Positions 5,372 to 62,940 of a stretch of DNA of 64,000 bases are shown piece by piece; positions within the stretch are counted from its first letter, which is position 1, and each line of letters opens with the position of its first letter. Both the position numbers and the translations under genes were made by a program. The DNA comes from Nereocystis luetkeana (Eukaryota; Sar; Phaeophyceae; Laminariales; Laminariaceae). The stretch is from assembly GCA_031213475.1 (NCBI GenBank), contig JARUPZ010000013.1, positions 4,196,739 to 4,260,738 of the forward strand. The letters run 5' to 3'. Below the pieces are notes generated by a model, which was not told where the DNA came from, made no database searches, and saw only the letters and a program-made list of their open reading frames with translations.

Positions 5372-8300
5372 GTGAGGGGGTGAAATGAAAGACAGACATC
5401 ATTCGTAGCAGTCGATATTATTCAGGAACTCCCGACAATAGGATGGTTGCAATTGCCATCATGTCGCTAACATGTGGGAAATAGCGAAAAAGGATAGCTG
5501 AAATTGTCGTGACGCCGCTTATATCTAGGAACTCGCGAAACAGAAGGTATGTAAGCGTCATCACCTTGGGTGCGCTGGTTGAAAAAGCTGCCCCCGTCGC
5601 CCTTGTCTGCTCACACGGCAAGGCCCCCACCCCGGGTGGTAATGAGCTGGTTGCTCACCGCCTGCATCGCAATGTTATTAAATACACCACTCTCTGCTGT
5701 GTCTCCACGGGTATGTGTTTCTGTGTTGATTTGCCGTATGGAATCGTTGGTCGAACGTTCTCATTCCTGTCCTTCGGGGGGGTCTCGGTCGACGGTCGTG
5801 GGCTCGGCTTCAGCCAGATCAAAAGAAGTCCCCATTATCTTTTTTGTCGAGGTGAAACATGCAGTAAGTAGTAGCTTGCGTGCGCTCGAAACAAACAAAT
5901 GGAAGAGAGGCGTTTTGGATACTCGGGGGAGGTTTTTGCTCAAACGCATGGGAGTTGCCACTTGTTTTTGTCAAGCTCGCCGGGGAGATCATGTAATTCT
6001 ACCCATCTTTGTTGTGTGTACGTACAAACACAAAAAGAAAGGCCACGTATGTCCGTATTACCTGCCGTATCGTACAACAACCCCGCGTCAGGTTGGCAAA
6101 CTTCCAAGCTTTTTCACCAGGAAATGCCATGTACCGGAGATTGCCGCGGCTTGTAGCTGTTGCGGGTCGCACACATTCCCGACCTACCGGGGACCACCCC
6201 ATTCCCCCCCCCCCCCTCCCCCACTACCACCACGCTCGTGTGGATACGGTGTTTTCGCGAAGAGTTCGGTTGGGTTGGGTTTCTTGTATTCTGTGTCCCA
6301 ACCCGCGAAAAAAACACAATATTCATCAACCCTTCCAGCACGGCAGTCCCGTTTTGGGGGCCAACTATTTAGACTTTGAGTGGTTCGTCCCCAAAATGGG
6401 GCCTCAGTTCCGAAAGGGTTAAGTCAGCGTACAGAGAGAAACATTGGTTTTGTTGTCAACCAACCGAAGTCACTTTTTGATTTGTAGTCAGGGACTCTAC
6501 CGACGTGTGGGCTCTACCGACGAAATGTGTTTTTGCTGGGGGGGAAATGGGACAAAAAATACAGCTTTCAGCCTGCCGAGCACTGTTGGGTTGGGTAACT
6601 CGTCGGGTTGGTTTGCAAACGGACGGATTATCATGTGCTTCGTTGCCTACTTTCAGCTTCACCTCTTTTAGCTACTTAGCTTCTCATGCTTGTCGGCTGT
6701 AAGTTTTTTCATTTCCCATACGTACGAAATTGGACTATATAGCGCAAACACGCCTCTTAATCTGAAAAGGTCCGAGGGCATCCCAACATCGTCGGCCTTC
6801 TGGGTTCCTGCGGAACAACCCACTTGTCGGAGTATCTGCCCGTCTCTCTGGACAAGCTAGTGCTGTCCTCCCAGGAGCTTCTCCCCATCGAAAGGGTGGT
6901 CAGGATTGCTCGCGACGCCGCCCGCGGGCTGCAGGGGCTGCACGAGGTTCCTGGCGGGGCCGTGGTCCACTTCGACTTGAAGCCTCACCAGCTGATGCTG
7001 GGGGTGAACGGTATAGCGAAGATCAACGATCTGAACATGTGCCGCTTCACTGGGATCGATGACGACGGTGACACTTGCCCCTTCACGGAGTCCCACGCTT
7101 CGCGACCTGGTACGTACGTATGCATGTCATACCTGGTACATGTTATACCTGGTATATGTTATGTGTGTTGGCACATGAATACATCGTGTTCCCCTACGTG
7201 TAATATTTACAGGAGCAGATGCGCGGTTTCAGATTCGTAGTCGGAAGTATTGGGGGGGACGTGGCGTGATCCTTTTTGGAGATTATACACGGCAGACGCT
7301 CGGTACCTCTCAGTGCATCGTTCGCCGTCGACTGATATATATGTGTTTCTTTGCCCAAAAGCCTACGATATCCAAACTACCGAACGCCCAACAGCGAGCG
7401 ACCCCCTCCACGCGGATGAGCATAAGGTCATCACACGCCTCGAATCGGTGCTTTCCTCCCCTCCGGTGCAGTGACGCCTTCCCAAGGTAGATCAAACCTA
7501 TACCCAACGTGTACTCGACGACGCTGCTCGCCCGGGGGTCCTCTGGAGCGTATCAACGCTAACGTGCTCGTTTTTTGCTGCTGATGTTACCCCCCGTGTT
7601 TAACGTTGTCAGGGCCTTGGCGGTCGCCAGAGAACATCGCGGGAGAGGTGAGGCATGCAGTTCAGTATGCAGTCCCCTTTGGTATATCCTGTAGCTCACC
7701 CTGTAGCTAGTAGGAAGGGTGCGGTTGTTCTGTGGGAGGCGGGGTGCTAGTTCGCGCGATCACACTATTTATATCCCTGCTGGCTTTCGATGAGAACGCC
7801 AGGACTTGCACGCGAAATGCAGTTTTGTCGAATACCCGCGGTGTTGTGTCGGGGGGGGAGGAGGGGAGGCGACTGTCTTTCGACCGCAAGCATGCGCCTG
7901 GCGGAACGGTAGCCGAGCCTGCAACACCAGAGCACGCGGTTCGGGATGATTGACGGGTATGGGTGGGTACCTTTTTCTTCTGTCGGGCATTATCGTGTTG
8001 ACGCTTACAGTTCGGGTTTGCGATGATCAACTGAGTGTTCCGAAGAATTTGTCGCGCTCCGTCAATTGTTTTTGTGTTGGTATATCTTAGGTCAGTCACA
8101 TTCGGTTAATACCCCCAACAAGATACTACGCCGGCAAGTCGAAGCGAAGTCTACAAAAAGCTAAAAACACCTCAAAAATCAAACACGACGAGCTTGAAAG
8201 CAGAGGTGCGTATGTACGATACAGCAGCAGTAGGTGTTGTCGTGTTGTTCGAGTCACCTAATTCGAATCCAAGGCTGATGCACGAACCAAAGCCTGATGC

Positions 8301-11300
8301 ATGGCGTACTTCGTACACTGCTGTGTATTGTTCTAGCGTCCCGCCGATTGCCGCAGCTTATCCCGTACCTCCTACATGTGTTTGAGCCAGCCTTGCGCTA
8401 TATAGGGAAGGAATATGCTGCACACTTTCCCAAATATGTTTTCACGTACGCAGTGTACACACCGTAGTTTTTTCTGAGAGCGTGGGCGCAAATCGTCAGG
8501 AGCTCTTTAACACGTTGAGAATAACCCCTCACGTTTTCGGGAACAAAAAGACTAGGAGTTAAAGTAGGCTAACTTTTGTCCTGAGCGACTGCTTTATTAA
8601 CGACTCCTTTCCTGTTGGTTTTGTAGCTTCACTTCGTTTTGAAAGTATCCAAACCCCCTCCACCCACCTCTGCTCTAGACTCTCGTTCACGCTACGAACT
8701 TAGAGACGGTTTTTATGTTCGGTGAGGTCTGTCGTTCCTGCGTGGGGGACCCAACGCTTTTCAAGTCGCCGGCTGGGCTACGACGAAGCACCTACTGGTA
8801 GTAGATAAACCCAGCGCTTACCCGCACCCTTCGCCCGTGCTACAGTACATGGTACACGCTACTGGTTTACCTTTTCCCTTATTTTAATCTTCCGGCGGAT
8901 TGGAAAAAAAAAACTTAAGCTCACCACACTCCCACGTTCAAATTTCGTATCGTGTGTTGATTTAACCCATAGCTCCCGTTGCAACATTAGAGCAGGCTGC
9001 TGTTACCACTGTCGCTTGAGCACGTTGACCAGACCTGATGACCCCCGAGAGGGGAAAGTGCCGTGGGGATAGCCATTCAGAGAGAGTCATCTCTCCCGGG
9101 TAGTGTGGGACTTGCGCGAGCTCACCCACTAAAAAAAACCGAGGCTATGAGGCCTTCCCGCCGGACTTGGTCCATTTACGGTCCACCCTATCCGTTGGGG
9201 CGTTGGTCCTCAGTCTTGACCCTACTGCACCCTCGACCGCAATAATGTACCATGTATGCTGATACAGGGGTACACGACAGGGAAAAAGAAAAAATAACAA
9301 GGGTCCGCCCTCCCCAGGCCGGAATGAAAATAAAACCAGTGGTGGAACTCCTGTACGACGAATATGAATATCATTTAAATTTTCGTTTTTCTTTGTTTCT
9401 TCTTGGATAACAAGTCTCGGAAATTGTAAGGGGGGCGTCAGCTGGGCTCGTGCATTCGTCAGAAATTATATAAGGGGGTCGATTGCTTTCGTGCTAACCT
9501 GGTTATTCGCATGTGGCTAGAGAGCCCCCATTCTCTCAGAGACCCCGTACCCCCCCCACCCCCTCCGTCTGTCTAAGAAACCCCACCCCCTCTTCGTTCC
9601 CGACGTTATCTCGGTTGTTCTGCACGTAAACGCCCCCTTCCTGCCGTGGTTGGGCGCTGTTCGACCCTGTGGTACGCTTCCTTCAGCCCCTCACAGAGAA
9701 GCTCGACATCTACAGCATGGGGATGGTATTCTACTCGATGCTAGCGGGGCACCCGCCTTTCGAAGGAGAGAAGGGGGCTCTCAAAAATATCATGGAGGGA
9801 ACGCCTCCCAAGGTCGACCGCTCCTGGAACAGTGACTTCATGGATGTAAGTGATACCGTGCACGTAGTCTCGACAGCATTTATCTACGGTCCGGACATTT
9901 CCTATTTGTTCAGGACAGACGTTTGCCACGGTCCGTGAAGCAGAGCCTTAACCTTACTCCCTTTGCGACCACACTCTCGCTTTTCGGAAGGACAAATTTA
10001 CTTGAAATTTGAGCCAGATTTTTAAGTGTCTGCACTCAGCATTGCAGTGCTGAACGTGTTGAGCTCAGTTCTCAGTTATCACCCCTTTAATACTCGGCGG
10101 GGGTGGAAAACGTGGAAAATAAATGGCGACTGTAGCGTCGGGCCACAAGAAGCAGTGCGGGGTGCTGAGGTATGGAGGGGTGTTTCCGAGGTGTAGCGGT
10201 AGGAACTACTGTACATGAGGACACGCGCGCACCATTTCCCTACTCTGGGGAGGGGGCGAGGGGGGCGGGGGCGGGGGCGGGGGTACTCGACATCATGCAT
10301 GACCGTCGTTGTATGTATGCCCAAAGACCCTCGCATCAACATAAGGCCTGGACGGAGCACGGTCGGGTTTTCACCGACCAGGCAGACATTGATTGCACCG
10401 AGCGCGAAGCGCCGTGATGTGTTTGGTGGGCTGCATGAAGGGTGAGCTGAATCCTACGAAGGACCGCTTGTAAGGCGGGTTTGCTTATGGGTGATAACCT
10501 CCATTAGGGGGAGGGGGGGATAGTTATCAGAACCTCCGATGGGTCCGAACTTGGGTATCCCCCCCTATATACCCATCATGTTCGGTTCTGGTCATGTGTT
10601 CCACACCTCGGACATGCCATCGATTCCTTCTTGATGATCTAGACCTTCTAAGGAAGATCTATCCCGATCTTGTACACTCTAGCTCGTGTTGACGGGTGGG
10701 GCCTGTACAATCTGCATGATGTCGCGTATGTTTTCCTGGGTTGGATCTGTACCATGTAGATCCTGCGCAACCTCTCACGACGGGACGCGAGGATTAGATG
10801 ATATATCTGTAGAGAGATAGATAGATATAGCATGATCTATCAGTCCGAGGTGTGCTGCGTTCCCACGTAGACGCTTCGTGATGCCACACCTCTCCTGGTG
10901 TTTTGGTCGATATACGTGCGACCCAACAGAGTGTCGGAAGCAGTAGGGCAGAGTGTAGCGATCTGCAGAGCTTACGACTTGTTCGATATTCGGCCCGATT
11001 GGCTTAGGGCTAGGATTATGGTTGTGCACTGACTGGCCCAAGGCTAGTTACCACTCGTCTCGTACACGACGACACTAAACCATTTTATCGGATGTCATAT
11101 GATAAGACTCTCTAATGGAGAACCCTATAGCGTAAGGATCTGCACAAAGTAGCGAGACTCGAGGTCGAGTGGTGTGTCACATCGGAATATGTATATATAC
11201 ATAAGAAGGGCGTGTTGCTGTACACGTCTTCAGCTGAGTCCGGAATGTACTAGCGTGGTTTTGTGCCGCCATGCTGACTCGGACCCAACCTCGCGTCCTC

Positions 11301-14934: not shown

Positions 14935-16734
14935 CCTGAACCGACAACAGCCGTGATATGTTCCTACTGCTATGAGGGACGGCCGTCGGGGTAAAGTGGA
15001 TAGCTACTGTAGTGCGATATTTCTGCGGGTAAAATTACCCGAGTAACCTGGTATCATCCGCAGTGTATGGGTGGGTATTTTTGTTCGTGGCGTGGTAGCC
15101 CATCGTGCTAGTCGGTCCCTAATCAACATATTTGCTGTTTTACTGTAGTGGTACCACAGGGAGGCATGTATATATGTTTAGAGAAAATGTTCCCCTCATC
15201 GCGTCGAAGCAGAGAGACCCCGCGTCATCCTCTTCCAGGGATGGAGCTTGTGATTCCATATGACTCCATCAGAGTGCAGCAGCAGAAGCAGTGGCGGGGC
15301 GGTGTGGTTGTACTACTACGCTCTTAAATCCAGAGACGTTTTATTGTGGGATGCACATTCATCTTGGCTCGAGTGGCGCACAATGCTCAAATTCCACGGT
15401 TCAGACACAACATGCTCGGGGAAACGCACCAGACCCACCAGAGGATGAGTCGGGGAAGATACGGGCACAGTAGTGCCTAGTATTTTCAGGGCTCTGCCGA
15501 AGACGAGCAGCCACCCGTATATGAGTTTGATGACCAGTATATCGCCAGCCTTGTTGTACGTATAGGTGATAACTAACTGTCCGATACATTCCTTTAGAGT
15601 ACATATTCGCATTGTCGCTGTCGGGTGCGGGTAGAAGAAACGACAAGTAAGTATCTGAGTATTCTCAAAGCATACCGGGTGAGTCCTACAAGCCCCCCAC
15701 AGGCGATTGAGGGGGTAGATGTGAGCTCGAAACGAGATCGCATGAGCGAGCAGAGATGCGCCAGGTATGATCGTGCAAGAGAAAAACTGCTGGAAAAGCC
15801 AGTGCACACACACGCGAGGACGAGAGGGAGAACGGGTTTTTGAGGGAGTGTGGGGTGCTGCGGGAGTAATGTCTTACGGTGGAGGGGCGGTAGGCATCGT
15901 TGGAACAGATGCGTGCATCGATTCTTCGTTCGACGACGACGGCCGTGGCAGCAGCTATAATATACCAGTATTGTGGGCAATACAATGTCATTGTGTGGGC
16001 GATGTACTTATAATAGTACACACATGAATTTGAACTTGTTTCGAAGAAATACTTATCCTGAACAGTACCAGATCCTGTGATACGATTGCCTTCATTTCGC
16101 AGCGATCTGCGGCCAGCCCCCCTCCTACAGACAGCCAGGGTGGTTTCACCGACTCCTGTTCCACGTTACGACAAAGAAAGGTCGAGAGACACCAGCCCCG
16201 TAGTCACATTCCACACGACAGGGAGCACACCCACACCAGACACAAGCTCCGTACAGTATACCTGGTAGTCGCAAGGTACACTCGCATGCGAGACAGGAAG
16301 GGTACCGGCGGCATACAAGACACACGTCACGCAGACGAAAGTGGAGACGATGACCAATGCTCTGTGCAGTATCACTCCGCACCTAGATATAAGCACACTT
16401 TCATTTGACAACTAGTTTAAATACGGTTCTTATGTTATGGGACAAAGTGGTGTAGCTCAACAAGCTTGGCGCGAAAATGCAGGAGACACGGTATAGCCTC
16501 TGGCCCCTACTGGGGTCTCAACCAGTACTTTCAATCAGTTTAAGGCCGCGGGTCAGACCCTTTCCTCCCCACCCCCTGCACTTTGTTGTCTTAGTATTTT
16601 GTATAGGCTTTGGAGTGGGGTTAGTGTGCTCCGATTCCCGCGTTATTTTTGTATACCCCGGGTTGATCTTGGTAAGCGTTGCACGGCGGTAGGTTGGTTT
16701 TGGCAATCAATATAGCAATAAGGCAAAAAGGGCT

Positions 16735-16925: not shown

Positions 16926-17838
16926 TCGTTAAGATAGGGTGGTGGTTTTGTGGCGCCATAGACTACGCGAAATTTAAAAGACTGCGGTCGAGGTGCAATC
17001 GGGATCAGCGCGGAACTTCGTACTCCGTGCGGCGTACGGGAGAGCTACCGCCCACCTGCTAGCGAAGGAGAGCTTTGCGACTCGGGGTTGGTGCCTTTCG
17101 AAGACGGCGAATGAATGTGAAACATCGAGGATCGAGGAACAGAAAAACACCACCACAATCAAATCATGTTTACCGCCGAATGACTGCCAGAGGAGCATAA
17201 ACCTCGTACCAGGTAGTCCACAGAGGCACAGGCCACAACAGCGACGAAAAGCCGCAAACCCGAGAAAAAGGGTACCAGGTATATTCTTTGTGTGGGAGGA
17301 GAGTGCTATACTCTGGCTCCGTCCGTCCGCTGCAGGTTGAAAATATGCAAACCGCTGTTAAGTTGTTGTGGTGTGGGGGGGTCCGGGTGTGGTTTGGGAT
17401 TCTCTTTCCCATCAAGGTGATTGCAGCAACGAAACCATTTCCCGATTTGCAACCACCCTTTGCGAGACTTACCCTCCAGCTACCGCACTACTCATAGAGA
17501 CCTACCTGTAAGCGTCAGCAGGGTGTCATGGTGCAACATGTTCATCACCATTGCCATTGGGAAAACCTGGTTGTACACCTGGAATACACCAGGTTTGTTT
17601 GCGTTATTGATGCCGCGTTGCCTCATTTTTGAGAATCTCCCAGAAACGCGCGGCTTAATGTTTTAGACCACGCACGCGCTGTGAAAACGCACAAAGTGCA
17701 CGGGCAGAAAGAAGTGTGTGTCTGTTGTCCTGTTGTGGCTGTCCCACCGCATGCCCCCGAGACTGCCAATAAAACGCATACGGAAGCACTACTGCTGCAA
17801 CAGCATTATTGCACGTAAACACATCTTTAAAACCTTTA

Positions 17839-19041: not shown

Positions 19042-22000
19042 GTGTGTGTGTTCTTCACATTAAACCGTTCTTTCTACCCGTCGACATCCAGCACAACCAG
19101 TGTCCGTGCCGATTCTTCCATCCTAGAAGAGATACAAGTTCTGTGGTCACAAAGCTACGCCACAGAGATACTACGTTGCCACGTGTGCAGTGTGAACTGC
19201 AGTGGGCAATGCAAAGCCATGTCATCATACTAGATACGACAGGCACGACATACGCAATCTATGAAATAGTGAAACGAAAAGAAACAATCAAAGAGAAAAC
19301 AAAAACAAGGTAGACAAGTCGAAAAAGAAAAAGAAGAAAAATGAAAGCAAAATCTAAGAGAAACAATCTGTCGTGCCCCCCCCCCCGCAGGCGAGGTGGC
19401 CTACACTTGAAAAAGAACGAGCTGGAAAAAAGAAGAAATAACAAAAAACACCACTGCTTGTGAACAGAGTAAGACAAAGAACCAAGGAGAAAGTAACAAG
19501 GAAAAATAACAAACGGGAAATAACAGGCAGACCAAAGCCCAAAGCACCTTCTAGGTGGCGGCAGCAGCTTGTGGTACGAGTAGTATAGCCAGGTTCTCCC
19601 TGCTAATCCGCCTGGTACCTTGCTACCCAGACTGCCGTCTCCGCCCTGCGTTCGTCCACTATGCCCAGCCCCTTGGCGTCAGACAATACGAGCCGAGCAG
19701 AGCAGGTTCGTCTTCCAACCACGCCACACGGCTCCTTGAGTACGGCTTATCAATCAGAAAAGGAAGAGGAAGAGAAAAATGAAATGAAAATCACGGAGAG
19801 TCAGCGCAAGAAAGAAAAAAAAACAAAACTAAAAGAGAAGACAAGGGAAGACCACGTTGGAGCCAGCTGCACCAGTTGGTAGCACTAGTAGTATGGTCAT
19901 ATTCTACTTCCTAGTCGACTTGGTGCCTTGCTACCCTGTCTGCCATCTCCTTCCTACTTTCGTCTACCGCCGTTTCCCTTCTACCCCTCCTGTTCCCCCC
20001 CCTCTCCGCATTCACTCGGTCGGGCTTTATGCCACTTCTCCTGTTGCCCCCTCCCCCCCCGTTCCTTTGGGCACCATCCACGGCGGATGCGCGGCGCTGT
20101 CTACTCATCTCAGCCTCAGCCTCGTGCCACCTCACCATGAACCGTTCGGCTGCTTCAAGGATCCCCCGATACCACTTCCCCACCTTTTTGGCTGCAGTGG
20201 ACCACAACGCGGTCTCAACTCCAAACACCAAGGGGGCAACTTCCGTTGACCCTTCGGTGGCTCGGAACTCCCTAAGGTCTTCGACTATGCATCTATGCCA
20301 AGTCTTACACTGTCCGCCTGGTCTCGGGTTCTCCCCACCAGCTATCGTCCCGAGCATTACCCGATTGGGTAATCGCTCCTTGCTTTGCCGTGCCACGCCC
20401 CCCGCAAAGAAGAGCCGCCGTTTGCGAATGGTCGTTTCGATGCTCTCGCAACGTGTCATCTTGAGGGCCTTCGCGTACGAGAGGGTGGCATGGTCAGTAC
20501 GAAGTCGGCGCTGGAAGCCAATGACTCGCAACAGGGCTTGGTGGTGAGCCGTTCGAAGCTTGGCAAAGTGTTCCGCTCTGAGGGTCCACGTCACACACCC
20601 GTACAGCAGGGTCTCAATCACCTCGGCCTTCAGCATTCGGACTTTAAGGCTAAGGGGGGCGGTCGTCCTATCATACAACTCCGGGCCGAACCGTTTGAAG
20701 CATGCTCGCATGAGGCGGATCCGTCGGTCGATTTCGAGCGAGAGGTCAGCGTTTTCGTGGATAACGCCGCCTAGGTATAAGAACTGGGTCGTCTGCTTAT
20801 ACCTCTGACCTGCCGCTTCGATGACGAGCGGTGGTGCGAGGGTTGTCCGGTCTGGTGTTTGTAGGACCATTGTCTCAGTCTTCTTTTCCGACACCGTGAG
20901 GCCTGCTGCTTCGAAGACAGTCACGATGACTGTCATCATTTTTGCGAGCCCTTCAGCCGACTTCGAGACAATTCCTGCATCGTCGGCGTACAACATGCCC
21001 CATACAGACCTTCGCACGCACGCCAATGGCTCCTCCTTCCCTGTTCGAACTACTCCAGCTTCCAAGAGTTGGACCAAATCCCTTACAATGGCTTCGTCTT
21101 GGCTGAAGCGTACTAGTACGACGTGTAACGCAGCAGCGAAGAACACGTTGAACAGTAACGGTGACAGTACACAGCCTTGCCGCAGCCCCTGCGTGACATC
21201 AAACCATTCCGAGAGCTCGCCGTCATCAGTACGCACGCGAGCCCGCATGCCATCGTGGAAATTACGGATAATTCTCAGCATCTTGGTTGGTATGCCAAAG
21301 CGTGTGAGTACCTTCCATAACAGCTCTCGGTCGACAGAGTCGTACGCTTTCTGCAGATCGATGAAGCACACGTATAAGGGGATTTTCCTCTGTCGTCCGA
21401 GCTCTTGCAGCCGGCGCACGACGAACAACATATCAATCGTTGATCGTGCGGGGCGGAAGCCGCACTGTTCCTCGGGGAGTAGTTCCTCGGTCTCGCAGTA
21501 GTTGCTGAGGCGGGACGCGACGATTTTCAACAACACTTTGCCTGCGTGGGCAACAAGCGAGATCCCTCTATAGTTGTTGCAGTCAGTTCGATCCTTCTTT
21601 TTGTGAAGGACCTTGATGATCGCATCTTTCCATTGCTGAGGGACTTCTCCTGTTAACCAAACATTGACAAGGATGTTGTGAAAGCGCTGGGCGAATGCCG
21701 GGTGGTCGATTTTTAGGAGTTCGACCGGGAGACCATCTGGCCCGACAGCTTTCCAATTCGACATCCCCTTAAGTGCTTCGGTCATCTCGTCTATGGATGG
21801 TTCATCTTCAAGCGACAGTTTAGGCGGTCGCGGTGGCAAGAGGTCGATGATCGTGGGATCGAGTTTCAGCGACTTCGTGTTCAAGAGTTTGTGATAAAAC
21901 CCCGCCCATCGTTCACGAATTCGCACCTTATCCCGTAGGATCGTGCCATCCTCGTCCCTAATGAACTGTTCGCTCCTCGCTTTAGTCCCTTCCAATCCTA

Positions 22001-23830
22001 CCGTACTCTTAAGGTGCTTGTAAAAGCCTCTTTGGTCGTTGTTCGCTAGGAGTCGTTCGGTTTCGGCAAGGTACGCTTCGAAGTACGCATGCAGTCCTGC
22101 GGCAATCACCTTCTGCAGGTTCGCACACGCAGATCTCAGGGTCTTCCACGCGGTTCTGTCCCGGGGGTGGGCACGCAAGAATTGTCGTGCATCCTCCCTC
22201 GCTGTCCATGCTGGCATGAATGCGGCCAAGGTTTCGGCAGACTCACACCATCCATGTCTGCGGTGGCGACGTGCAGGGGGTGGTACCTCTTTTTCGACCG
22301 CATCAATAACAGCCGCAGTGAAAATCTCAACCATACCAGACGTATTACGGGGCTGGATAGGCTGGTTGAGAGTGGAGATGATCCTGGAGACTACTCGTTC
22401 ACGACAATTTCCATCGGACATAAAAAGCTGCCTGTCGAACTCTCGGCATTTCGTCGGTCTACGTATTTGTCTGTTGGGCGCAAAACGACCACCGAGTCGG
22501 ACTTTGATATACAAGATGTTGTGGTCTGAGTCAGCCTTAGCTGGGGCAGGAGGCTGTGGGACGACTTTCGCATCTTGTACTCTAGGTCGATGGACTTGAC
22601 GGGTTAGGATGTAGTCAATCCGCTTACGGTCATTCGGGCCGGTGCCGTTGTAAGTATGCGATATCCCACCCTTGCGCGTGCTGAAAAACGTGTTGGTGAG
22701 AGCCAACTTGCAATTGGTGGCGAACGACAGGAGCCGTCTGCCATTATCGTTACGAACATCACGTCCATACGCTCCCAGCACTCTGCTTTCATCATCACCG
22801 CACCCTTCCTTCCTCTGTCCAGTTCGCGCGTTGGCATCCATCAGTACAAACAGACACTCTTTCGTCGGGATTTTTTTCACCAAGTACTCCAGCTTCTGCC
22901 AGAAGATACCTTTCAGTTCGGCGTCCTTGGTACAATCAGTTGGAGCATACGCAACGACGAAATTGACTGCCTCGCATTTGCCAGCCAGCTCAAAGCGCAT
23001 AGACATTAGCCGCTCGTCAACGAACTGATGAGTATACACAGACTTACTGCACAACGATTCCTTGACAGCTAGGCCTACTCCGTACAGCCCTTGCCTGGTG
23101 GCTGTTGTTTCCTGTCCTGAACAGAAAACACGATACCCTGCCGCACGGAACGTCGTGCTGCCGGACCTCCGAGTTTCTTGCAGGCCAATGAAGTCACAGC
23201 CGAGTTGCCGTCCCTTCGCCAGTACCCGCTCGTCATGTCCGTACCCGTTCTTCCCCTTTACAGCCAGGGTGCGCACATTGTAGGTCGCTACCGTCACAAG
23301 TGCCTCCTTCTGTCTCTTACGAGCCTCGCGTGCTGCTTTCTTTGCCAGCCGACGTGAGGCTCGTCCCCGCCTTCTTTTTTTCTTTTTTTGTTTCTTTTTT
23401 TTCTCTATGGCGAAAGTGGCTCTCCGTTTCGTAGCCCGGTACGCGCCTTGGTTTCCGTTGGCTGGGTGCAGCCGTCCCAACCCACGCCGACAATCCCATC
23501 CTTCCTGTCGTGCATGCATACCCACGCTGTGGCCAGCCTCTCCACTCCACCGGCTGCCCACGTAGCGCTCTCTGCTGTGGTGATGTACCCGTCCCGCCTG
23601 AGGGATGAACTCCTCGGCGTCGGGGTTAAGAAGAAAAAACATCACCACCACCCCACGCGGTCCTTAAAGCGAGCAGGCCACCAGCCGGACCGCGCAAGGT
23701 TCCCTACCTACGTAGTCCGAAGCTCGATGTTCGTGTGACTGTCGCTAGACCGCTGCAGGTCCTGGCAGACTTCCTCGGCCCACCCCAAGGACGGGGCAGG
23801 CCGAAGCAGGCAGAGGTACCTGGTATCAGT
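19042..23830 (-). mobile_element. LINE (endonuclease/RT non-LTR element), near full length
   Basis: On the minus strand: about 180 bp 5' leader, the 1246-codon ORF (23651-19911) and an 870-bp 3' UTR that is pyrimidine-rich on the element's own strand and ends ..GGTTTAATGTGAAGAAC followed by a (CA)n tail instead of poly-A. The 3' end is fixed by four other copies sharing it; the 5' end is estimated. A 1-kb truncated copy at 51491-52540 differs by only about five substitutions plus a poly-A expansion, so the family moved recently. No clear target-site duplication was found by eye. Confidence 0.85.
19911..23651 (-). CDS. LINE ORF: AP-endonuclease and reverse transcriptase, 1246 aa
   Basis: One uninterrupted frame. 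Residues 84-115 are a lysine/arginine-rich block, probably RNA or nuclear binding. Residues 118-385 are an AP-like endonuclease: TYNVR (Asn125), GLQET (Glu159), MDANARTG (Asp272), RIDYIL, and SDHN (374-377). Residues about 630-930 are the reverse transcriptase: GPDGLP, the NNYRGISL block, EEQCGFRPARSTIDMLF, FIDLQKAYD (763-771, first catalytic Asp), GLRQGCVLSPLLF, and LYADDAG (YADD 888-891). The C-terminus has RRLFFAGGVARQS and GQCKTWHRC but no clear RNase H and no CCHC knuckle. All catalytic residues are present, so the protein looks functional. It nicks target DNA and copies its RNA there. The clade (RTE/CR1-like) is not settled. It may mobilise the SINEs nearby. Confidence 0.9.
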   Translation of the reverse strand: MVVMFFLLNPDAEEFIPQAGRVHHHSRERYVGSRWSGEAGHSVGMHARQEGWDCRRGLGRLHPANGNQGAYRATKRRATFAIEKKKKQKKKKRRRGRASRRLAKKAAREARKRQKEALVTVATYNVRTLAVKGKNGYGHDERVLAKGRQLGCDFIGLQETRRSGSTTFRAAGYRVFCSGQETTATRQGLYGVGLAVKESLCSKSVYTHQFVDERLMSMRFELAGKCEAVNFVVAYAPTDCTKDAELKGIFWQKLEYLVKKIPTKECLFVLMDANARTGQRKEGCGDDESRVLGAYGRDVRNDNGRRLLSFATNCKLALTNTFFSTRKGGISHTYNGTGPNDRKRIDYILTRQVHRPRVQDAKVVPQPPAPAKADSDHNILYIKVRLGGRFAPNRQIRRPTKCREFDRQLFMSDGNCRERVVSRIISTLNQPIQPRNTSGMVEIFTAAVIDAVEKEVPPPARRHRRHGWCESAETLAAFMPAWTAREDARQFLRAHPRDRTAWKTLRSACANLQKVIAAGLHAYFEAYLAETERLLANNDQRGFYKHLKSTVGLEGTKARSEQFIRDEDGTILRDKVRIRERWAGFYHKLLNTKSLKLDPTIIDLLPPRPPKLSLEDEPSIDEMTEALKGMSNWKAVGPDGLPVELLKIDHPAFAQRFHNILVNVWLTGEVPQQWKDAIIKVLHKKKDRTDCNNYRGISLVAHAGKVLLKIVASRLSNYCETEELLPEEQCGFRPARSTIDMLFVVRRLQELGRQRKIPLYVCFIDLQKAYDSVDRELLWKVLTRFGIPTKMLRIIRNFHDGMRARVRTDDGELSEWFDVTQGLRQGCVLSPLLFNVFFAAALHVVLVRFSQDEAIVRDLVQLLEAGVVRTGKEEPLACVRRSVWGMLYADDAGIVSKSAEGLAKMMTVIVTVFEAAGLTVSEKKTETMVLQTPDRTTLAPPLVIEAAGQRYKQTTQFLYLGGVIHENADLSLEIDRRIRLMRACFKRFGPELYDRTTAPLSLKVRMLKAEVIETLLYGCVTWTLRAEHFAKLRTAHHQALLRVIGFQRRLRTDHATLSYAKALKMTRCESIETTIRKRRLFFAGGVARQSKERLPNRVMLGTIAGGENPRPGGQCKTWHRCIVEDLREFRATEGSTEVAPLVFGVETALWSTAAKKVGKWYRGILEAAERFMVRWHEAEAEMSRQRRASAVDGAQRNGGGGGNRRSGIKPDRVNAERGGNRRGRRETAVDESRKEMADRVARHQVD

Positions 23831-23885
23831 TATCAATTTTGAAAGATTCAGTACGGATACGTAAAGAAGCACCCGCATACCTGGT

Positions 23886-24001
23886 ATGTGTGTGTGTGTT
23901 CTTCACATTAAACCGTTCTTTCTACCCGTCGACATCCAGCACAACCAGTGTCCGTGCCGATTCTTCAATCCTAGAAGAGATACAAGTTCTGTGGTCACAA
24001 A
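23886..24001 (-). mobile_element. LINE 3'-tail fragment, 116 bp
   Basis: TGTGTGTGTGTTCTTCACATTAA.. through GTTCTGTGGTCACAAA matches the last 115 bp of the LINE. It is severely 5'-truncated, lies about 60 bp beyond the full element's 5' end in the same orientation, and has its own (TG)n end, so it is a separate insertion. Confidence 0.85.
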
Positions 24002-35399: not shown

Positions 35400-36779
35400 T
35401 CAGCCCCCCCGGGGTGTGGTGCAGCAAGCTTTATGAACCGAAAACTTAAATGGCCTCGATAATTTTTCCATTTCAACCGCAAAAGTGGGCTGGTTTATCA
35501 GTTTCGGGCGGTTCAAACCCGACTGAAGAGTTACCCCATGGTTCGTAGGGGTTACACTCTTTGGCCCAAAGGTTTCTGACCAATTGATTGAGTCCCTTAG
35601 GCGAGGAACAATCAGTTAGGATGAAACGATTACTCGTATATTCGTTTAGGACTAGCCCATACAAGTAGTGCCGGTCGGGAGGCACGAACGAATTTCTTCC
35701 AAGTATTGTATCTCGGGTGAGATATTGAGCTCCCAATCAATGTATGTGAGGGATCCAGGAACTTCTGGTGCACCCCTACGGTGGGGTGGCTCTGAAAACG
35801 AAACTGGACCGAACATTTTTTTGTCGGTTCCTCAACCGATTTTTTCTCGGTGAAACCCGCCAAACGGTCAACATTTCGAAGGGTTTGGTGTGCAACTAAC
35901 ACTGTTGTTGGCATGCGATGACGAAATTAAATGAACGAATGGCGTAGAAGACATATAATCCTAATAAAACCGAACCATTTTTTTTTCGGTCGGTTTCTCG
36001 GTCGGTTTCTCGTCGAAACGAGTCAAATGGTCAACGTTTTGAAGGGCTGGCATGCATGTGTTGGCCTCTAATTATTTGACGACACGATCGAATGGTATCA
36101 AGCGCAGTCAAAATATAGTTTAGTATAACAATGTATCATAGATCATAGAGTGTGTACGAGGCAATGCAAATTTCCTTGGAAAACATCCATCTACATATAT
36201 ATATATATATACTAAAAGGGTGTGTCTTAAACCCCCCCAGAGAGCATTGATTGGAACAAACAGAATGGAATATTATTTGCGGCATAAATCGGTGTTGATT
36301 GCTTGTGAGAAACGAATATATTCAGTGCAGGCCAAGAAAAACAGTAGTATATCTATGCTATAGGAAGAGGAAGAATAGGTGTTGCACCGTTTTGCACCCC
36401 TTTTTCTCGTTTGGGAGGGAGGGACCGAACGGCCCGACCGAACGGGAACAAATAGCAGATTATTTGATGTAGTAGATGGGGAAACCACCGAAGATGGATG
36501 TGGACACCAATGTGCAAAATATACAGTTCGTGCCGATTTTGGCTGGCGAGGCCCGTGATTGCTTTTGCATGTTGACCTACACACGTTTTGTTGGAGAATG
36601 AATAGAAATAATGACTACGAACAGCCTCGTTCCGTTCCGCTCGTTCCCATGCTCTGGTGGTGGGTGTTAAACGCCCTAACTCCTGTATATCCCATGTACC
36701 TGGTAGAGAGGATTCGAGGCTACCAAGGTACATATATATAGCTATCTATACTGATTCCTAAAGAAAAAGTATTCCATAC

Positions 36780-37213: not shown

Positions 37214-37653
37214 TTTTGAAACTACAGTATCCCAGGTATAATACTAATCCCTACCTGGTTACCTAGTCCATAATAATAAAATAATATTTAATAATGACAG
37301 ATAATAATGATAATAAAATAATATTTAAGAATGACAGATAATAACAATAATAAAATAATATTATAAATAGTTCCACATACTAAATCCGATAGGGGTAAGG
37401 GATACAAGACCATACTTGCTCGTATATGCCCACAAAATTTACGTCTATTTTATCAAATCCTTCCTATGTATGTACGAGTACACTGCAGCTGTAAACGAGG
37501 TACCAGGTAGATAAGGAGTATGAGGCCATACGATTCCTGGAATATAACAAATAAATGTTGTTTGCTACCGTACTACTGACTGTAAGTAATCTTAATCTTC
37601 TATATACCATACCAGGTACATGGTACCTGGTATAAATAATAGATAGCTGGGGG
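37214..37653. other. AT-rich spacer with tandem repeats
   Basis: About 37270-37370 has two to three units of ATAATAATAAAATAATATTT.. with AATGACAGATAATA. TACCAGGTA/TACCTGGTA words occur at 37500, 37609 and 37619. No gene. Confidence 0.6.
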
Positions 37654-45123: not shown

Positions 45124-45910
45124 TGTGATAGAGTACCTTGATTTATAGTACACCAGGGAGAAACCAACCATCAGTACGTATATAGACCAACCATCAGTAC
45201 GTATATAGACCAGCCGTCAGTAAATAAGATAGTTGTAATCGGAGAATGGATACGTACGTCTAGCATCGAAGTATCCGAGGAGATAGAGATATACGTACGT
45301 ACTATGTTCATACAGAACTCACGGGGTGTTGCGCTGTATAGTATCATAGTATCTTCATACAGGATACTATGCCCATACAGAAATCACCGGGTGTTGCGCT
45401 GCATAGTATCTTCATACAGGATACTATGCCCACACGGAATTCCCGGGATACTACACTACATAGTATACGGAGTGCTCCCATACAGGATTCTCGGGGTGCA
45501 GCATTATATATTATCCTCTACCAGGTACATGACTCATGAGTTGTTGCGCTTCATAGTACCTTCTTACATGAGGTTTTACGGGATGTCACGCTTGTAGTTG
45601 AGGGTGGCGCGTGCCTCCAGTTGAGGGTGACGCGTGCCTCCTTGCAGTAGATTGTAGCCGGTTGAGCCTCCTTGCTAGTAGATTATAGCCGGTTTAAGAC
45701 ATATCATATTTCTGTCTTCAAAAACCAGCGGCTTCCCACCCCCCCTCTTAGCTCACTCGTCTCTTGCCGCCTTCGAGCAAGCCGCACACTCATAATAGAA
45801 GAGAACATGTCATGAACCGCGTCTGAGTTTGTCCAAGAAACAGACACCTGTGTCACACTTCTTCTGTGGATCATCATCACTGGTACCCTTGCCTTCTCTC
45901 ATCCTTCACA
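45124..45910 (+). repeat. 3' LTR, 787 bp
   Basis: Starts TGTGATAGAGTACC, ends CCTTCACA, followed by TAAG. Internally it has two to three near-repeats of TCATACAGGATACTATGCCC (45355-45430), also found in the left part of the 5' LTR. Confidence 0.85.
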
Positions 45911-47110: not shown

Positions 47111-48602
47111 AGTACCGAGGGAGTTCCGAGCCACCGAAGGGTCAACGGAACTGGCCCCCTCGGTGTTTGGAGTTGGGACCGCGCTATGTATGGTTCACTG
47201 CAACAAAAAGGCGGGGAAGTGGTACCGGGGGATCCTTGTAGCAGCCGAACGGTTCATGGTGAGGTGGCACGAGGCTGAGGCTGAGATGACTAGGCAGCGC
47301 CGCGCATCCACCTTGGGTGTGTGGTGTTCAAGGGAATGGGGGGGGGGGGGGCAAGAACAGGAAGAGTGGCAGAAAACCCGCCCAAGGGAATGCGGAGAGG
47401 GGGGGGAACAGGAGGAGGAGTAGAAGGGAAACTGCGCTGGACGAAAGTAGGAAGGATATGGCAGACAGGGTAGCAAGGCACCAGGCCGACTAGGAAGTAG
47501 AACATGATTATTCTACACGACGGCGTGCCACCAACTACTGATACATACAGCTGGTGCGAACGTGGTCTTGCTTTGGCTTTCCTTCGTCTTCTCTTGTTTC
47601 TTTCTTTTTTTTCTTTCTTGCGCTGATCCTTTCTTCGTGATTTCCAGTTTATTTCTTTCTCTTCCTTTCTTCGATGTATAAGCCTTGTTGAAGGAGTCGT
47701 GTGGCTTGGTGGGTGGATGACGAGCCTGCTCTGCTCGTTTCGTATTTTCTGACGCCAAGGGGCTTGGCATAGGTGACGAGCGCAAGACGGAGACGGGGCA
47801 GTCCGGGTACCAAGGTGCCAGGTGGACTATTAACAGCAGGGAGAGAACCTGACAATGCTACTCGTGCCACAAACTGCAGCCGCTAACTGGAGGGTGCTTT
47901 GTGCTTTACTTGCCTGTTATTTTCCCTTGGTTCCGTGTCTTGACACTGTTTACATGTATGTAGTGGTGAGTTTCATCTTTTTTCTGTTTTTTCCAGCTCG
48001 CGAGTCGTTCTTTTCAAGTGCCTACCACAATCCCTGCGGGGGGGGGGCACGACAGTCTGTTTCTTCATTTTTTTTTCAATTTTTCTTGTTCTCTTTTGAT
48101 TTGTCTTCTTTTTGTTTTTGTTTTTCCTTTGTTTCCTTTCTCTTCTTTATTTCATAGATTGTGTATGACATGCCTGTCGTATCCAGTACGCACACATATA
48201 TGGTGACAAGGCATTGCATTGCCCACTGCTGCTGCTGTGCTTACTGCATTGGGGGCAACGTAGTATCTCTGTGTGTGTCGTTCTCATCAAACCGTTCTTT
48301 CTACCCGTCGACATCAAGCACAACCAGTGTCGGTACCGATTCTTCAATCCGAGAAGAGATTATTACTATCATTAATATTAGTTCTGTGGTTACAAAGCTA
48401 CGGCACAGAGATACTACGTCGCCACGTCAGACGTACCTGGTAGTAAGCAGCAAGCACAGCAGTAGTGGGCATTGCAATGCCATGTCACCACATAACTTGT
48501 ATCTCTTCTAGGGTTGAAGAATCGGCACGGACAACTTGTTGTGCTGGATGTCGACGGGTAGAACTAACGGTTTCTTTTATGTAAAGAACACGCACGCACA
48601 TA
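47111..48602 (+). mobile_element. LINE copy, 5'-truncated, with a nested insertion
   Basis: The start corresponds to LINE ORF residues near EFRATEGSTE; the frame reads AERFMVRWHEAEAEM and then loses similarity in a G-run. The 3' UTR follows on the + strand and ends ATGTAAAGAACACGCACGCA, the family's CA-rich tail. It is clearly diverged from the 19-kb copy (older). Positions 48282-48495 are a reversed LINE tail inserted inside it. Confidence 0.8.
48282..48495 (-). mobile_element. LINE tail nested, inverted, in another LINE copy
   Basis: TGTGTGTCGTTCTCATCAAACC, then the LINE tail in minus orientation to about ATGTCACCACATA; the host copy's own + strand tail resumes at 48497 (ACTTGTATCTCTTCTAGG). 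A 20-bp ATTACTATCATTAATATTAG insertion marks this copy. Confidence 0.7.
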
Positions 48603-50591: not shown

Positions 50592-51220
50592 AGTTACCTG
50601 GGATTATATGCCAGGTATGTATATGTTACCAGGGTAGGTTATAGCACTCTTGACCCAATATGTCAGGAGACGTGTCAAAGAACGCCATACGTGCGCCGTC
50701 AAGGGTGTAGGGGCCGAGAGTCTAACACTAAATCCTACCAGGTAGTCGTTTGGTGTCAGTCGAGGCATGTCAAGGCTAAGCTGGTGTCTGTCGAGGGGTG
50801 AAGCCCTGTCTCCTGACCGATTTGCTCTTCTGAAGGAAGTATGCCGAAGGTTTTGTACCTCATACTCTGGTGTGGTGAACGCATGCCAACATTTAATTTC
50901 CGTCCAGTGTGCGGGGGGCATTTTGCTTTGCGACTCGCATCAGTCCGCATGGCTACGAGGTGACAACCTACAGCAACATATACGAGTGTATATGTTGTTG
51001 CTGTTGTTGTATTTATTTGTCGTTGCTGTTGTTGTTGTTGTTACTCTCATATTAATACGTAGGCGAAGCCGTAAGTTCATACCTGGTATCCAATATTGAG
51101 ATTGTGGCTCCCAAAAACTGGATCGGAAGAATGCGTCGGATAAAAAATTACGTGTAGAATACTCGTATATACAGTCGTACAGCCAGTCAAAGCCGAATGA
51201 CACCAAAAAAGCGGTCAAGT

Positions 51221-51276
51221 ACCTGGTGCGTGGTACCTGGTACCTGGTACCTGGTGCCTGGTACAAGGTACCAGGT
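51221..51276. repeat. Cluster of TACCTGGTA/TACCAGGTA words
   Basis: GTACCTGGTGCGTGGTACC, then TGGTACCTGGTACCTGGT and GGTACCAGGTAG: a local (GGTACCT)n expansion of the word dispersed through the window. Confidence 0.8.
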
Positions 51277-51357
51277 AGACATCATGGCGAGTTGATCATG
51301 GCTGATGGTGATGATGGCCTCACATGATTAATATTCATGTTACTATTTAATTCCTGG

Positions 51358-51466
51358 TATTACGGGGGGCCATAGTTAACAGGACCTATGGTAGACATAA
51401 AAACCTATATGTTTAACCATTTTTACTCACAATATTTGGTCCTGTTAACTATGGCCCCCCGTAATA
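51358..51466. mobile_element. MITE-1, copy 7
   Basis: TATTACGGGGGGCCATAG to CTATGGCCCCCCGTAATA; the ends are perfectly complementary, suggesting a young copy. Same CATAG/CCCCCC variant as copies 8 and 9. Confidence 0.95.
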
Positions 51467-52540: not shown

Positions 52541-52693
52541 TGTATATATATATATATACTGGTTGTGAAAGAAGCAAGCTGTAGCAAGAACGCATCTCGA
52601 TGGGAGCAAAAAAAACGAAATACCAGGTAGTGCGCACGGCGACACCATACCAATCCGTAAGGGAAATGGTACTATTAATAGTAATACCCGGTA

Positions 52694-55758: not shown

Positions 55759-55867
55759 TATTACGGGGGGCCATAGTTAACAGGACCAAATATTGTTAGT
55801 AAAAATGGTTGAACATATAGGCTTTTATATATGCCATAGGTCCTGTTAACTATGGTCCCCCGTAATA
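55759..55867. mobile_element. MITE-1, copy 9
   Basis: TATTACGGGGGGCCATAG to CTATGGTCCCCCGTAATA, centre TAAAAATGGTTGAACATATA. Confidence 0.95.
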
Positions 55868-57539: not shown

Positions 57540-58570
57540 GCGACCACGGTCCACAAGAGGGCCCCCGGTCGACTGAACCACACGTCTTGGCGTGGTCGAC
57601 GAATACGTGGGGCTGAGACGCATTGCATATTATTAACGGAAACGATTGCATGCGCCACTGGCAGCGTATATATCCACTCCATTCGCACCTATCATACCCC
57701 AGTTACAGCAGTGGGCGCCCGTTGTTCAGAAACGTCAATGTGGTGTCCAGGCTCAGTGCCACAGTTTTTTCCGGCCTTGATCCGCAGCGACAATAATAAC
57801 TGTATACCCTCGTACCTGGTAGGATTTTGATTTTTTTTTCCTCTGTTGAGCTGTGCTGCTCGACTCAAGTTTCTTATCGTTGGTGCCGATATGGTCCTAC
57901 TTTTCTCACCTTGATGTTTCTTCGCCGCGGACGCCCACTGTCCTACTATGATTGACGCCTATAGCCGACCCACATACCCTAAACCTCGTCCGAACCCTAC
58001 CCCTCATGCAATCTCTCCACCGTATACGCCTCAAACAGGGAATAATAATAGTCATACTACTCGTATCACCGCCGAATATGTAACACGCAAGATCACACAC
58101 TCTCCCCGGGAGCAAAATCACCGAGCCGACTTCCTACACAACAGTAATAGGGACACACAGCGTGTTTGTCTCCTTTGTTTGGGAATCTTTTTGCCGCCGA
58201 GGTCTTTCCCGTTTATTGTGTGTATCTCTATATACATCGAATACGCATTGCTCGGCGTTTGCGCTCTCTCCTCGGTCGAGAAACTCAGACGGGACACTCT
58301 CGTTCGAAGGGGTGGACGACCTTGCGTGTTTTATAGACCCCCGAGATCCATATGCTAGCGTTATATTCCCCGCCGATGATGCCACTTGGTAGTCAGTTGG
58401 GTTCGTAGCTGGTAACAAGATGTTGATCGATCGCCTATCCAACCTAAGCCTTTTAACACCCCCCCCCCCACCCACTGCAACCGACTTGATACATACACGC
58501 ATCACCAACCCGCGGTTTCAGTTTCTGGGGATCCAGAAGTCAGGACATTAAAAGACTTACGTGAAAAAAA
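57540..58570. other. Unassigned stretch
   Basis: No gene recognised; short frames only. A C-run lies at 58461-58470. Confidence 0.4.
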
Positions 58571-59082: not shown

Positions 59083-59660
59083 ACATTAAGACCCTAACAG
59101 GGTCGGATACCCGTCCATCTAGTCCAGGTTTCGATTGCCCAGACCCTGCCACAAGTCTTAGGCAGCACAGGGTCTGGACGATCGACCCCGTGCAGGGTGT
59201 CAACCCTGTGTTACGTAAGGCGATTAGACCCTGGCAGGGTGAGGGGCCTGCCCATCTGGTGCGAGGTTCCTTAACCCCTTTACAACCGCAGTCCCGTATT
59301 GGGGACAAACTACTTGAAATTTGAGTGGTTTGTCCCCACCTATGGGACTGCGGTTCTAAAAGGGTTAACACAAGACCTTGCCAAGGTCTTGACCTGAACA
59401 GACTGTGTGCGATTGCCCGTGTACAAGGTGAAAAAGTTGTGCAGGGTTTCTATCCAGAACCTTACCAAGGTCTTCAACCGGTACAAGGTGTGTGTGTTCA
59501 CGCTTACCTACCCTGTGCAGGGTTTTTACCCTGACAGGGTGTCCCCACATACACATACCTGGTACCTCTACAGGGTCCAAGACGGTAGGCAAGGTCGCCA
59601 CAAGGGTCACCCACATGATGTGGACACTGGCAGGGTATTCACAAGGCATGGCCGAATGTT
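59083..59660. repeat. Array of ACCCTG..CAGGGT palindromic words
   Basis: Over about 480 bp, excluding the inserted hairpin: GACCCTAACAGGGTC, CAGACCCTGCCACAAGTCT, CACAGGGTCTGG, GTGCAGGGTGTCAACCCTGTG, GACCCTGGCAGGGTG, AGACCTTGCCAAGGTCT, ACCTTACCAAGGTCTT, CCCTGTGCAGGGTTTTTACC, CCTGACAGGGTG, CTACAGGGTCC and ACTGGCAGGGTA. Each is a quasi-palindrome of about 13 bp; spacing is irregular. No open frame follows the array. Confidence 0.75.
59271..59368. repeat. MITE-2 hairpin, copy 7, inside the palindrome array
   Basis: TTAACCCCTTTACAACCGCA to GCGGTTCTAAAAGGGTTAA; it interrupts the ACCCTG array. Confidence 0.9.
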
Positions 59661-59721
59661 CACGTGTGCATCAAAATATCTATTATTATAGTACCAGGTA
59701 TTGATATTTATAGTAACTGTT

Positions 59722-60011: not shown

Positions 60012-60035
60012 CTAGGAGGGTTAACCCTGATTACT

Positions 60036-60146: not shown

Positions 60147-60867
60147 TACGAATACGCTAGTAATGGCATTGTGTTCGTATGCCAATTCGGGCGACAACGG
60201 CGAATTACTTCAAAACCAAGCATATTTAGTATATACCTGGTACCACAGTATGCGGTATGTACTGGTGCGTGCTTTCTTCAGGTCCGTCCCTTTCGCAAAA
60301 ACCCATCGGGTGGCCACTGGGGTACCTTCAGAGCGTGCTCTAATTGACCTGAACAAAAAAACACCTTCAGCCACAAATATCAAGGTCCATTATTGTACAA
60401 CCCAACCATTCATTTTTTTTACTTGTATGTACGAGGTACCTGGTAACATTTTTGTCAACTATCCAATATTAAGTGCTTGCCAGCTTTTGCCAGTCGACGC
60501 CCTGCTTTCGAGTTACTATTACTGTACTACCGAAGGGGGAGAGAAGCGAACACTTTGCATTATTTGCATGAACGAATCTTAAAAAATCCGATTCGGGGAT
60601 GCAATCTGATCAAGGCACACAATTAACTCTGAATATAAAATATTTATAATTTCAACATTTTCAACTTGTTTCGTACTGGAAATATAGCTTAATACCTGGT
60701 ATTACTTATTTTCCGAGTTCCGGCACACGATATGCACAGCAGAGATGCTGCAGTTTTTGCCAACCATTTTCTCGAGTATGTTGCTAAGGTGTAGGCTACG
60801 TCATTTTGACGAACGAATACTACCAGGTGCTGTACCAGTAGGTACCAAGTGTTCATTACCTCGCTCG
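60147..60867. other. AT-rich unassigned stretch
   Basis: A frame at 60115-60582 begins inside MITE-1 copy 11 and is not trusted. TACCTGGTA words occur at 60234, 60438 and 60692. Confidence 0.45.
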
Positions 60868-61858: not shown

Positions 61859-61968
61859 TTATTACGGGGGACCATAGTAAATAGGACCTATAGTACAGAC
61901 GAAACCCTATATATTTACCTATTTTTACCAACAATGTTTGGTCCTATTTACTATGGTGCCCCGTAATA
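61859..61968. mobile_element. MITE-1, copy 12
   Basis: TATTACGGGGGACCATAG to CTATGGTGCCCCGTAATA; the ends are almost perfect complements. Confidence 0.95.
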
Positions 61969-62497: not shown

Positions 62498-62776
62498 TTG
62501 CCAAGACCCGTTTCACTACGTAGCTGTAAAGCGAAGTGCAACTATGAGGCACATCCGTCTACTCTGCAATCGTGTCTGACGTTTGTCCGGACTGTGTATA
62601 GACAATTTACATGGCGTGTTGTGTGTTGTGTGCTTCTCGGGACTGCGGCCCTCGCTGCCGATCAATGCCTATACCTAGGTGATTATGAAGATCTGTGTTG
62701 TCGCGAAGCTACAGTAACTGCGGCCATTAAATGGTCAGGATGCCAAGAACCCACGGATACCATTAATACATACCAG
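62498..62776 (+). CDS. Candidate exon, Cys-rich, unrecognised
   Basis: 93 codons to a CAG|GTATAT donor at 62777. Residues 39-54 (WRVVCCVLLGTAALAA) resemble a signal peptide core, followed by DQCLYLGDYEDLCCREATVT and KWSGCQ, a possible secreted Cys-rich domain. The ATG used is the first in frame; the leader before residue 38 is long for a signal peptide, so the real start or exon border may differ. Confidence 0.25.
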
Positions 62777-62940
62777 GTATATATATTCCCCTTTCTCCTC
62801 GGTTGCTGGGAGGACGATACTCGTAACAGCCTCCTCACCCTAAAACCCTCGTACTAAAAGATCTGACATCCGCGAGAAACAAAATCGCGGAAAGTCGAGA
62901 CTTCGCTCGCTTGATCAGTAGTTCCCCCCGGCAGGGAGCA

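Follow-up and report, generated by a model that had tools for sequence, protein, structure and literature searches.

A stretch of 64,000 nucleotides of the Nereocystis luetkeana genome (contig JARUPZ010000013.1, C13:4196739-4260738; hereafter the window, from an assembly of 465 Mb in 1,987 contigs) contains dispersed copies of a nine-base word, TACCTGGTA/TACCAGGTA, i.e., TACC(A/T)GGTA, which is very probably the footprint left behind on excision by a mariner-like DNA transposon of low copy number. Exactly 26 copies were counted in the window (16 TACCTGGTA and 10 TACCAGGTA) versus 0.33 expected from 100 dinucleotide shuffles (standard deviation 0.55, maximum 2), an excess of about 80-fold. An earlier note on this DNA had reported strong over-representation with some 26 copies, which this count bears out, and had placed them within 5 bp of their true positions (for example 7148, 37619 and 45524 for 7146, 37624 and 45519, respectively). 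In the whole assembly, we counted 182,395 copies (91,155 and 91,240 for the two forms), or one per 2.55 kb, versus 1,744 (883 and 861) for the word read backwards. This excess of about 105-fold places the genome-wide frequency far above background. Contigs of the assembly are large up to at least C38, which includes a place at 2.8 Mb, and C50 measures 95 kb.

The word was sharply defined, with 90 copies versus 1 to 11 for each single-base variant in a 244-kb sample (the window and loci L009-L026). The flanks of the 26 window copies were unlike one another, so that these copies do not belong to a single repeat consensus, and most copies were single units; in a larger sample, flanks beyond approximately 8 bp were near base composition. 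The earlier note had offered as readings a binding site, a preferred insertion or microsatellite seed, and a scar left by some element not yet recognised. The last is supported, through the finding of an insertion scar with empty sites and of a matching element family in the genome; the binding-site and microsatellite readings are not. Among the open-access papers listed, judged by titles and the starts of abstracts, we found no report of such a genome-wide word or scar phenomenon, and a search of the open-access literature returned no paper joining excision footprint, brown alga and transposon.

The word as a seven-base insertion

Compared with homologous repeat copies, the word corresponded to a 7-bp insertion at TA, giving TA-CC(A/T)GG-TA; the word is thus a 5-nt core between duplicated TA dinucleotides. 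Empty sites were sought in a sample of ~283 kb containing 108 distinct sites; 106 of these could serve as queries, and for 20 a homologue covered the site. Pairs of homologues were mostly empty, i.e., aligned better without the 7 bp (64 empty, 8 filled, and 1 unclear), with 16 sites mainly empty and 4 mainly filled. As a control, 800 random TAN5TA sites of other sequence were used (215 with a homologue), which gave 120 empty, 1,712 filled and 78 unclear pairs, with 30 sites mainly empty and 180 mainly filled. A first run of this test, like the flank, decay and matrix statistics below, was performed on a 286-kb sample in which L003, L005 and L006 overlap by ~2.7 kb, so that a few sites were counted twice (112 instead of 108); it yielded 66 empty, 8 filled and 1 unclear pairs (105, 1,631 and 85, respectively, for the control).

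Clean empty-site cases included L009:7935 versus L003:1724, window position 50736 versus L012:1008-1135, L017:3808 versus L017:3547, L002:1501 versus L019:6272, and L028:2269 versus copies of a 109-bp miniature inverted-repeat transposable element (MITE) described below. At one position of this MITE, 60 filled and 11,073 empty copies were counted genome-wide, with 0 and 0 for the reversed controls. The filled fraction, 0.54%, was near the 0.71% of TA dinucleotides that carry the word genome-wide, as extrapolated from the sample.

Tandem or overlapping copies do occur, for example at 51234-51249, as would be expected if the copies were heptamer (TACCTGG)n microsatellites or pieces of them. Apart from the predominance of single units, adjoining pairs were found in both orientations (TACCTGGTACCTGGTA, 4; TACCTGGTACCAGGTA, 3; TACCAGGTACCTGGTA, 0), and were thus not mainly same-orientation tandem arrays. 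Moreover, the double copy at L008:1501/1508 had an empty site in L006 that lacked all 14 bp. A microsatellite can therefore hardly be the explanation.

Target preference, decay and variants

The flanks of copies without an adjoining copy exhibited a symmetric, TA-centred signal: W at -7 (T 0.48, A 0.35), A at -6 (0.45) and a purine at -1 (A 0.38, G 0.39, T 0.07), with the mirror image on the other side. A signal of this kind would result from target selection by a dimeric transposase specific for TA.

When tested for conservation against substitution, the word was not conserved. Variants exceeded background with a transition bias: 66 transitions in 9 classes (background ~12) and 70 transversions in 16 classes (background ~31). 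The background was derived from eight control words; a ninth, TACCTGCTA (22 and 157), was dropped because its variants include repeat words. The excess of single-base variants amounted to 0.85 of the perfect words (interval 0.61-1.15), or ~0.71 when the ninth control was included (background ~13 and 45). Under a constant-rate model, the ratio of 0.85 means that the scars were gathered over ~0.2 substitutions per site or more; they look old, continuously made and unmaintained.

These data bear on another reading, namely a site for protein binding or modification that is maintained in the genome. In cyanobacteria, the HIP1 palindrome is a short word hugely over-represented genome-wide, and a eukaryotic counterpart would likewise be palindromic, sharply defined and present throughout the genome, as is the present word, which also contains CCWGG. 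It is nevertheless a 7-bp insertion relative to homologous copies, its variants accumulate as in unconstrained DNA, and its outer flanks agree with the target choice of a transposon (see below). A maintained site is thus highly improbable, and the likeness to HIP1 ends with the short palindrome and its genome-wide excess, as the word here is an insertion scar and not a maintained word.

Minor variants kept CCA at one end (TACCAGGGTA, 8, versus TACCTGGGTA, 0; TACCACGGTA, 6, versus TACCTCGGTA, 0; TACCAGTA, 30, versus TACCTGTA, 18, for 8.7 expected). Since CCA is retained, the inverted repeat of the source was expected to start 5'-CCA(GG), with 3-nt or 5-nt overhangs. This prediction was recorded before any element end had been seen; the terminal inverted repeat (TIR) found afterwards starts CCAGTC. 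We also observed, at L003:2208-2236, a 29-bp structure whose two ends are TACCTGG and CCAGGTA, close to DNA duplicated in tandem.

A mariner-like family and a second family with its own word

A search of the genome with an IS630-type profile gave 24 matches, none above the cut-off, one of which was locus L036. This locus encodes a protein of 437 aa with D182, D303 and D338; the last two catalytic residues are separated by 34 residues, as in Mos1/mariner elements, the DD34D class. Matches to HTH_Tnp_Tc3_2 (31.4, cut-off 31.5) and DUF7769 (23.5, cut-off 27) were both below the cut-off, as was the IS630 match, and the match to Mos1 (3hos) was weak (E 0.033). No Transposase_1 (PF01359) or DDE_3 (PF13358) match was found in Pfam up to E 1. 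Genome searches with these two profiles returned 0 matches, which does not prove absence: one of the searches missed copies of a DDE_3-matching protein and the other matched no control genome. A protein search with the mariner-like transposase identified 105 match pieces, graded from 100% to ~30% identity.

By comparing copies, the element ends were determined as TA-CCAGTCCGACAAAAAATATAACC, with the inverted repeat 5'-CCAGTCCGAC and a TA target duplication. Inverted repeats and TA duplication were present at both ends in one copy on contig C3 (L050, L051) and in a 576-bp copy on C10 (L066). Among 20 end pieces fetched by position from transposase genes, 8 showed TA-CCA(G/C)TC. Irregular ends were observed at L036 (left), L048, L044 (left), L045 (left) and L054 (e.g., TACCAGG-AGTCC, TACCTGG-AGTC), possibly as failed one-ended excisions or re-joins. 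Related but decayed copies were also observed at C29:3890716-5049678, thirteen in number, with ~31% identity and mostly 82-104 kb apart; the strands were opposite on either side of one 200-kb gap, and this spacing suggests large segmental duplications.

A genome search with a 22-mer of the end, allowing up to 3 mismatches, found 223 places versus 5 for the reversed control. Of the 100 listed, 35 had at most 2 mismatches and all 35 kept CCA, a retention partly built in by the CCA of the search word; 37 others had 3 mismatches and were not TACCCGTCCAACAAAAAATAGA, and the remaining 28 were TACCCGTCCAACAAAAAATAGA. The latter is repeated on many small contigs (C53 to C150), perhaps as an unplaced array, and probably accounts for many of the other 123 matches. 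The matches listed thus include at least ~70 near-consensus ends, i.e., tens of elements; more diverged copies exist. The footprints exceed near-consensus elements in number about a thousandfold.

A disproportion of this size would also be expected from programmed excision of the ciliate type, in which elements confined to the germline would be eliminated anew each generation from the tissue that was sequenced, with only their scars on display; an excerpt of PMC12242761 implicates Tc1/mariner transposases in a process of this kind in Oxytricha. Fresh scars should then be perfect, in conflict with single-base variants at ~0.85 of the perfect words, and the MITE site bears the scar in only 60 copies against 11,073. 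We consider this process very unlikely here.

Several other candidates for the source were rejected. An inverted repeat starting CCAGG (L009:6066-7168) lies within a longer inverted repeat, and the 5-nt overhang model (TIR CCAGG) was dropped once the TIR was seen as CCAGTC. DDE_1 (pogo-like) matches (28 places, 6 read as loci) had no convincing TIR; no ends were found for an IS630-like gene on C17 (L035) and its degenerate relative L042; and L043 is an inverted pair related to the element of the TTAC family. TIR scans of the sample revealed no source element. The gene at L035 (C17:1211500-1216500) is single and intact, encodes an IS630/Tc1-like protein of 597 aa without detectable inverted repeats, and is possibly domesticated.

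The footprint core, CC(A/T)GG, agrees with the terminal nucleotides of the mariner-like transposon (TIR 5'-CCA), and from this match in sequence it would derive from the tips of the TIRs. In all fetched pieces, 33 CCA ends were identified, of which 29 had TA directly before them, and 22 of the 33 came from stretches chosen by their match to a word starting TACCA. The 29 element flanks had W at -7 in 26 cases, A at -6 in 14, a purine at -1 in 25 and T at -1 in 2. At three of these ends (L066, L071, L073), the element lies within the TA of a footprint that predates it; new insertions thus seem to use the footprint itself as a target, and nested footprints would be explained in this way. With these three left out, the position weight matrix (PWM) of the footprint gave a mean of +1.01 bits on the 26 other mariner-end flanks, a value equalled by 0 of 2,000 random TA samples of equal size. 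Footprints and element insertion sites therefore have a common target preference in each outer flank (W at -7, A at -6 and a purine at -1).

A second dispersed word, TATTAATA, with 74 distinct sites in the sample, served as an internal control. It also corresponds to an insertion: at 14 sites with a homologue, 47 pairs were empty, 5 filled and 3 unclear, versus 199, 825 and 79, respectively, for control pairs. Its flanks read TAC...GTA, as do those of the 109-bp MITE (TTACGGGG...CCCCGTAA, TA duplication; 37 ends). The TATTAATA PWM scored +1.07 bits on MITE ends (0 of 2,000 random samples as good) and -1.44 on mariner ends, and the PWM of the first word scored -1.41 bits on MITE ends. As each matrix fits the ends of its own family only, two families in one genome each have their own footprint. 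We read TATTAATA as the footprint of the TTACGGGG MITE family, whose autonomous partner is likely an element of IS630/Tc1 type that ends ...CCGTAA-TA; its copies, located on six contigs, are 99.4-100% identical over the right end.

Several points weigh against attributing TACC(A/T)GGTA to excision of the mariner-like element. Most statistics come from ~283 kb of 465 Mb, from hand-chosen places in one genome, and the sample includes loci fetched for holding the word or a transposase match. Among the 64 empty pairs, 26 came from the single MITE site L028:2269 and several were ragged alignments. As for the ends, 12 of the 20 pieces fetched by position had no canonical end: CCA at L053 was not preceded by TA, some were odd (L048, TACCTGG-AGTC; L054), and the rest had no clear inverted repeat. 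The left ends on C20 (TACCAGG-AGTCC), C24 (TACTGGT-AGTCC) and C1 were odd as well. Moreover, 4 of the 33 CCA ends lacked TA, and TA and CCA were largely built into the 22 chosen by match, unlike their outer flanks. Other families with CCA ends could contribute, and in this one genome no locus was seen at which one allele held the element and another the footprint. Finally, the product measures 5 nt, against 3 nt for Sleeping Beauty or Hsmar1, and the one-base A-A overlap invoked below is one that we infer.

Table 1. Putative excision footprints and related features in the window (positions in the window).
Feature	Position	Strand	Remark
Footprint TACCTGGTA	7130..7138	+	exact word
Footprint TACCTGGTA	7146..7154	+	exact word
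Footprint TACCTGGTA	16259..16267	+	exact word
Footprint TACCTGGTA	17207..17215	-	exact word
Footprint TACCTGGTA	17273..17281	-	exact word
Footprint TACCTGGTA	23817..23825	+	exact word
Footprint TACCTGGTA	23878..23886	+	exact word
Footprint TACCTGGTA	36697..36705	+	exact word
Footprint TACCTGGTA	37501..37509	-	exact word
Footprint TACCTGGTA	37610..37618	-	exact word
Footprint TACCTGGTA	37624..37632	+	exact word
Footprint TACCTGGTA	45519..45527	-	exact word
Footprint TACCTGGTA, within repeat	48434..48442	+	alignment improves without the word at 9 homologous places in the sample, but is ragged
Footprint	50736..50744	-	homologous repeat copy L012:1008-1135 has a clean empty site
Footprint TACCTGGTA	51080..51088	+	exact word
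Footprint, tandem cluster	51234..51242	+	exact word; read as nested footprints
Footprint, tandem cluster	51241..51249	+	exact word; read as nested footprints
Footprint, tandem cluster	51269..51277	-	exact word
Footprint TACCTGGTA	52621..52629	-	exact word
Footprint TACCTGGTA	57813..57821	+	exact word
Footprint TACCTGGTA	59556..59564	+	exact word
Footprint TACCTGGTA	59692..59700	-	exact word
Footprint TACCTGGTA	60234..60242	+	exact word
Footprint TACCTGGTA	60437..60445	+	exact word
Footprint TACCTGGTA	60693..60701	+	exact word
Footprint TACCTGGTA	62771..62779	-	exact word
Minor variant TACCAGGGTA	50627..50636	+	CCA kept at one end
Second word TATTAATA	24794		11 in window
Second word TATTAATA	26431		
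Second word TATTAATA	26963		
Second word TATTAATA	32262		
Second word TATTAATA	32988		
Second word TATTAATA	36915		
Second word TATTAATA	45956		
Second word TATTAATA	50567		
Second word TATTAATA	51050		
Second word TATTAATA	52673		
Second word TATTAATA	59027		
109-bp MITE	32277-32385		TA duplication; further single ends in window
109-bp MITE	51358-51466		TA duplication
109-bp MITE	55759-55867		TA duplication
109-bp MITE	61860-61968		TA duplication

Two other observations concern repeats and gene families. The window contains a LINE-like (long interspersed nuclear element) open reading frame on the minus strand (19911-23663; 1,250 codons between stops) with the Pfam domains RVT_1 and Exo_endo_phos. 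Of 3,201 candidates, 40 were scored and gave 40 full-length matches at 100% identity, so this family is very young. The EsV_1_7_cys domain, whose expansion marks brown algae, had 1,710 first-look candidates in the genome, and all 150 scored were above the cut-off, in agreement with a brown-algal host.

Proposed mechanism and comparison with known systems

On exit, the transposase would cut one strand at the tip of the element and the other 3 nt inside, which would leave both flanks with 5'-TACCA-3' overhangs. End joining would overlap the two terminal A's as an A-A mismatch, and fill-in would then give TACC(A/T)GGTA, the central A or T being decided by mismatch resolution. Blunt joining would yield TACCATGGTA, which was found 0 times in the sample. 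Cut-and-paste transposition would keep the copy number flat while every exit left a scar, and a few dozen long-lived elements could in this way have produced ~182,000 still-perfect scars, subject thereafter to neutral mutation. The copy-number paradox thus needs no special rule, because under conservative transposition copies stay flat and scars pile up. As an illustration with assumed figures, ~4x10^5 events in 10^8 years from ~50 copies would correspond to an exit rate of the order of 10^-4 per copy and year.

Excision footprints as such are already known; their scale and exactness are what stand out here. Transposon activity is usually judged from surviving copies; here, a family that seems negligible by copy number has jumped far more often than this number suggests. 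The scars let target preference and repair outcome be read from sequence alone, and also provide a decay clock; they should serve as low-homoplasy markers between individuals and species, and the same word test is applicable to any genome to reveal hidden transposon histories. More speculatively, and less likely than not, the two footprint families together might preserve, almost in full and in datable form, a fossil record of well over 10^5 transpositions from a never-large population, the uniformity of the scars resulting from a dedicated, highly accurate end-joining, perhaps in a haploid phase without homologous template, so that exit never restores the element.

According to excerpts of PMC3878927 and PMC5714172, known mariner transposases leave 2-3-nt 3' overhangs whose nucleotides are retained in the joined flanks, and mariner cuts are staggered by 3 bp (PMC5714172). 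The footprints given in the excerpt of PMC3878927 for Sleeping Beauty, C(A/T)GTA, and Hsmar1, T(T/A)A, have in common with the present one the TA duplication, a short tip-derived core and an ambiguous central A/T; unlike theirs of 3 nt, the core here is 5 nt (CCWGG), and the product is a dominant exact word with ~182,000 copies. One Mos1 end also reads TACCAGG among the inverted-repeat oligonucleotides in the excerpt of PMC2642840, in which Mos1 continues CCA-GGTGTAC, whereas the inverted repeat here continues CCA-GTCCGAC; the 437-aa protein further differs from Mos1 by its DUF7769-like N-terminal region and its low similarity. As for excisions of rice DNA transposons, of which 8 out of 94 were clean and the others had deletions or filler in the excerpt of PMC4423477, the scars were read there, as here, by comparing homologous sites; unlike in rice, one exact product dominates in N. 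luetkeana.

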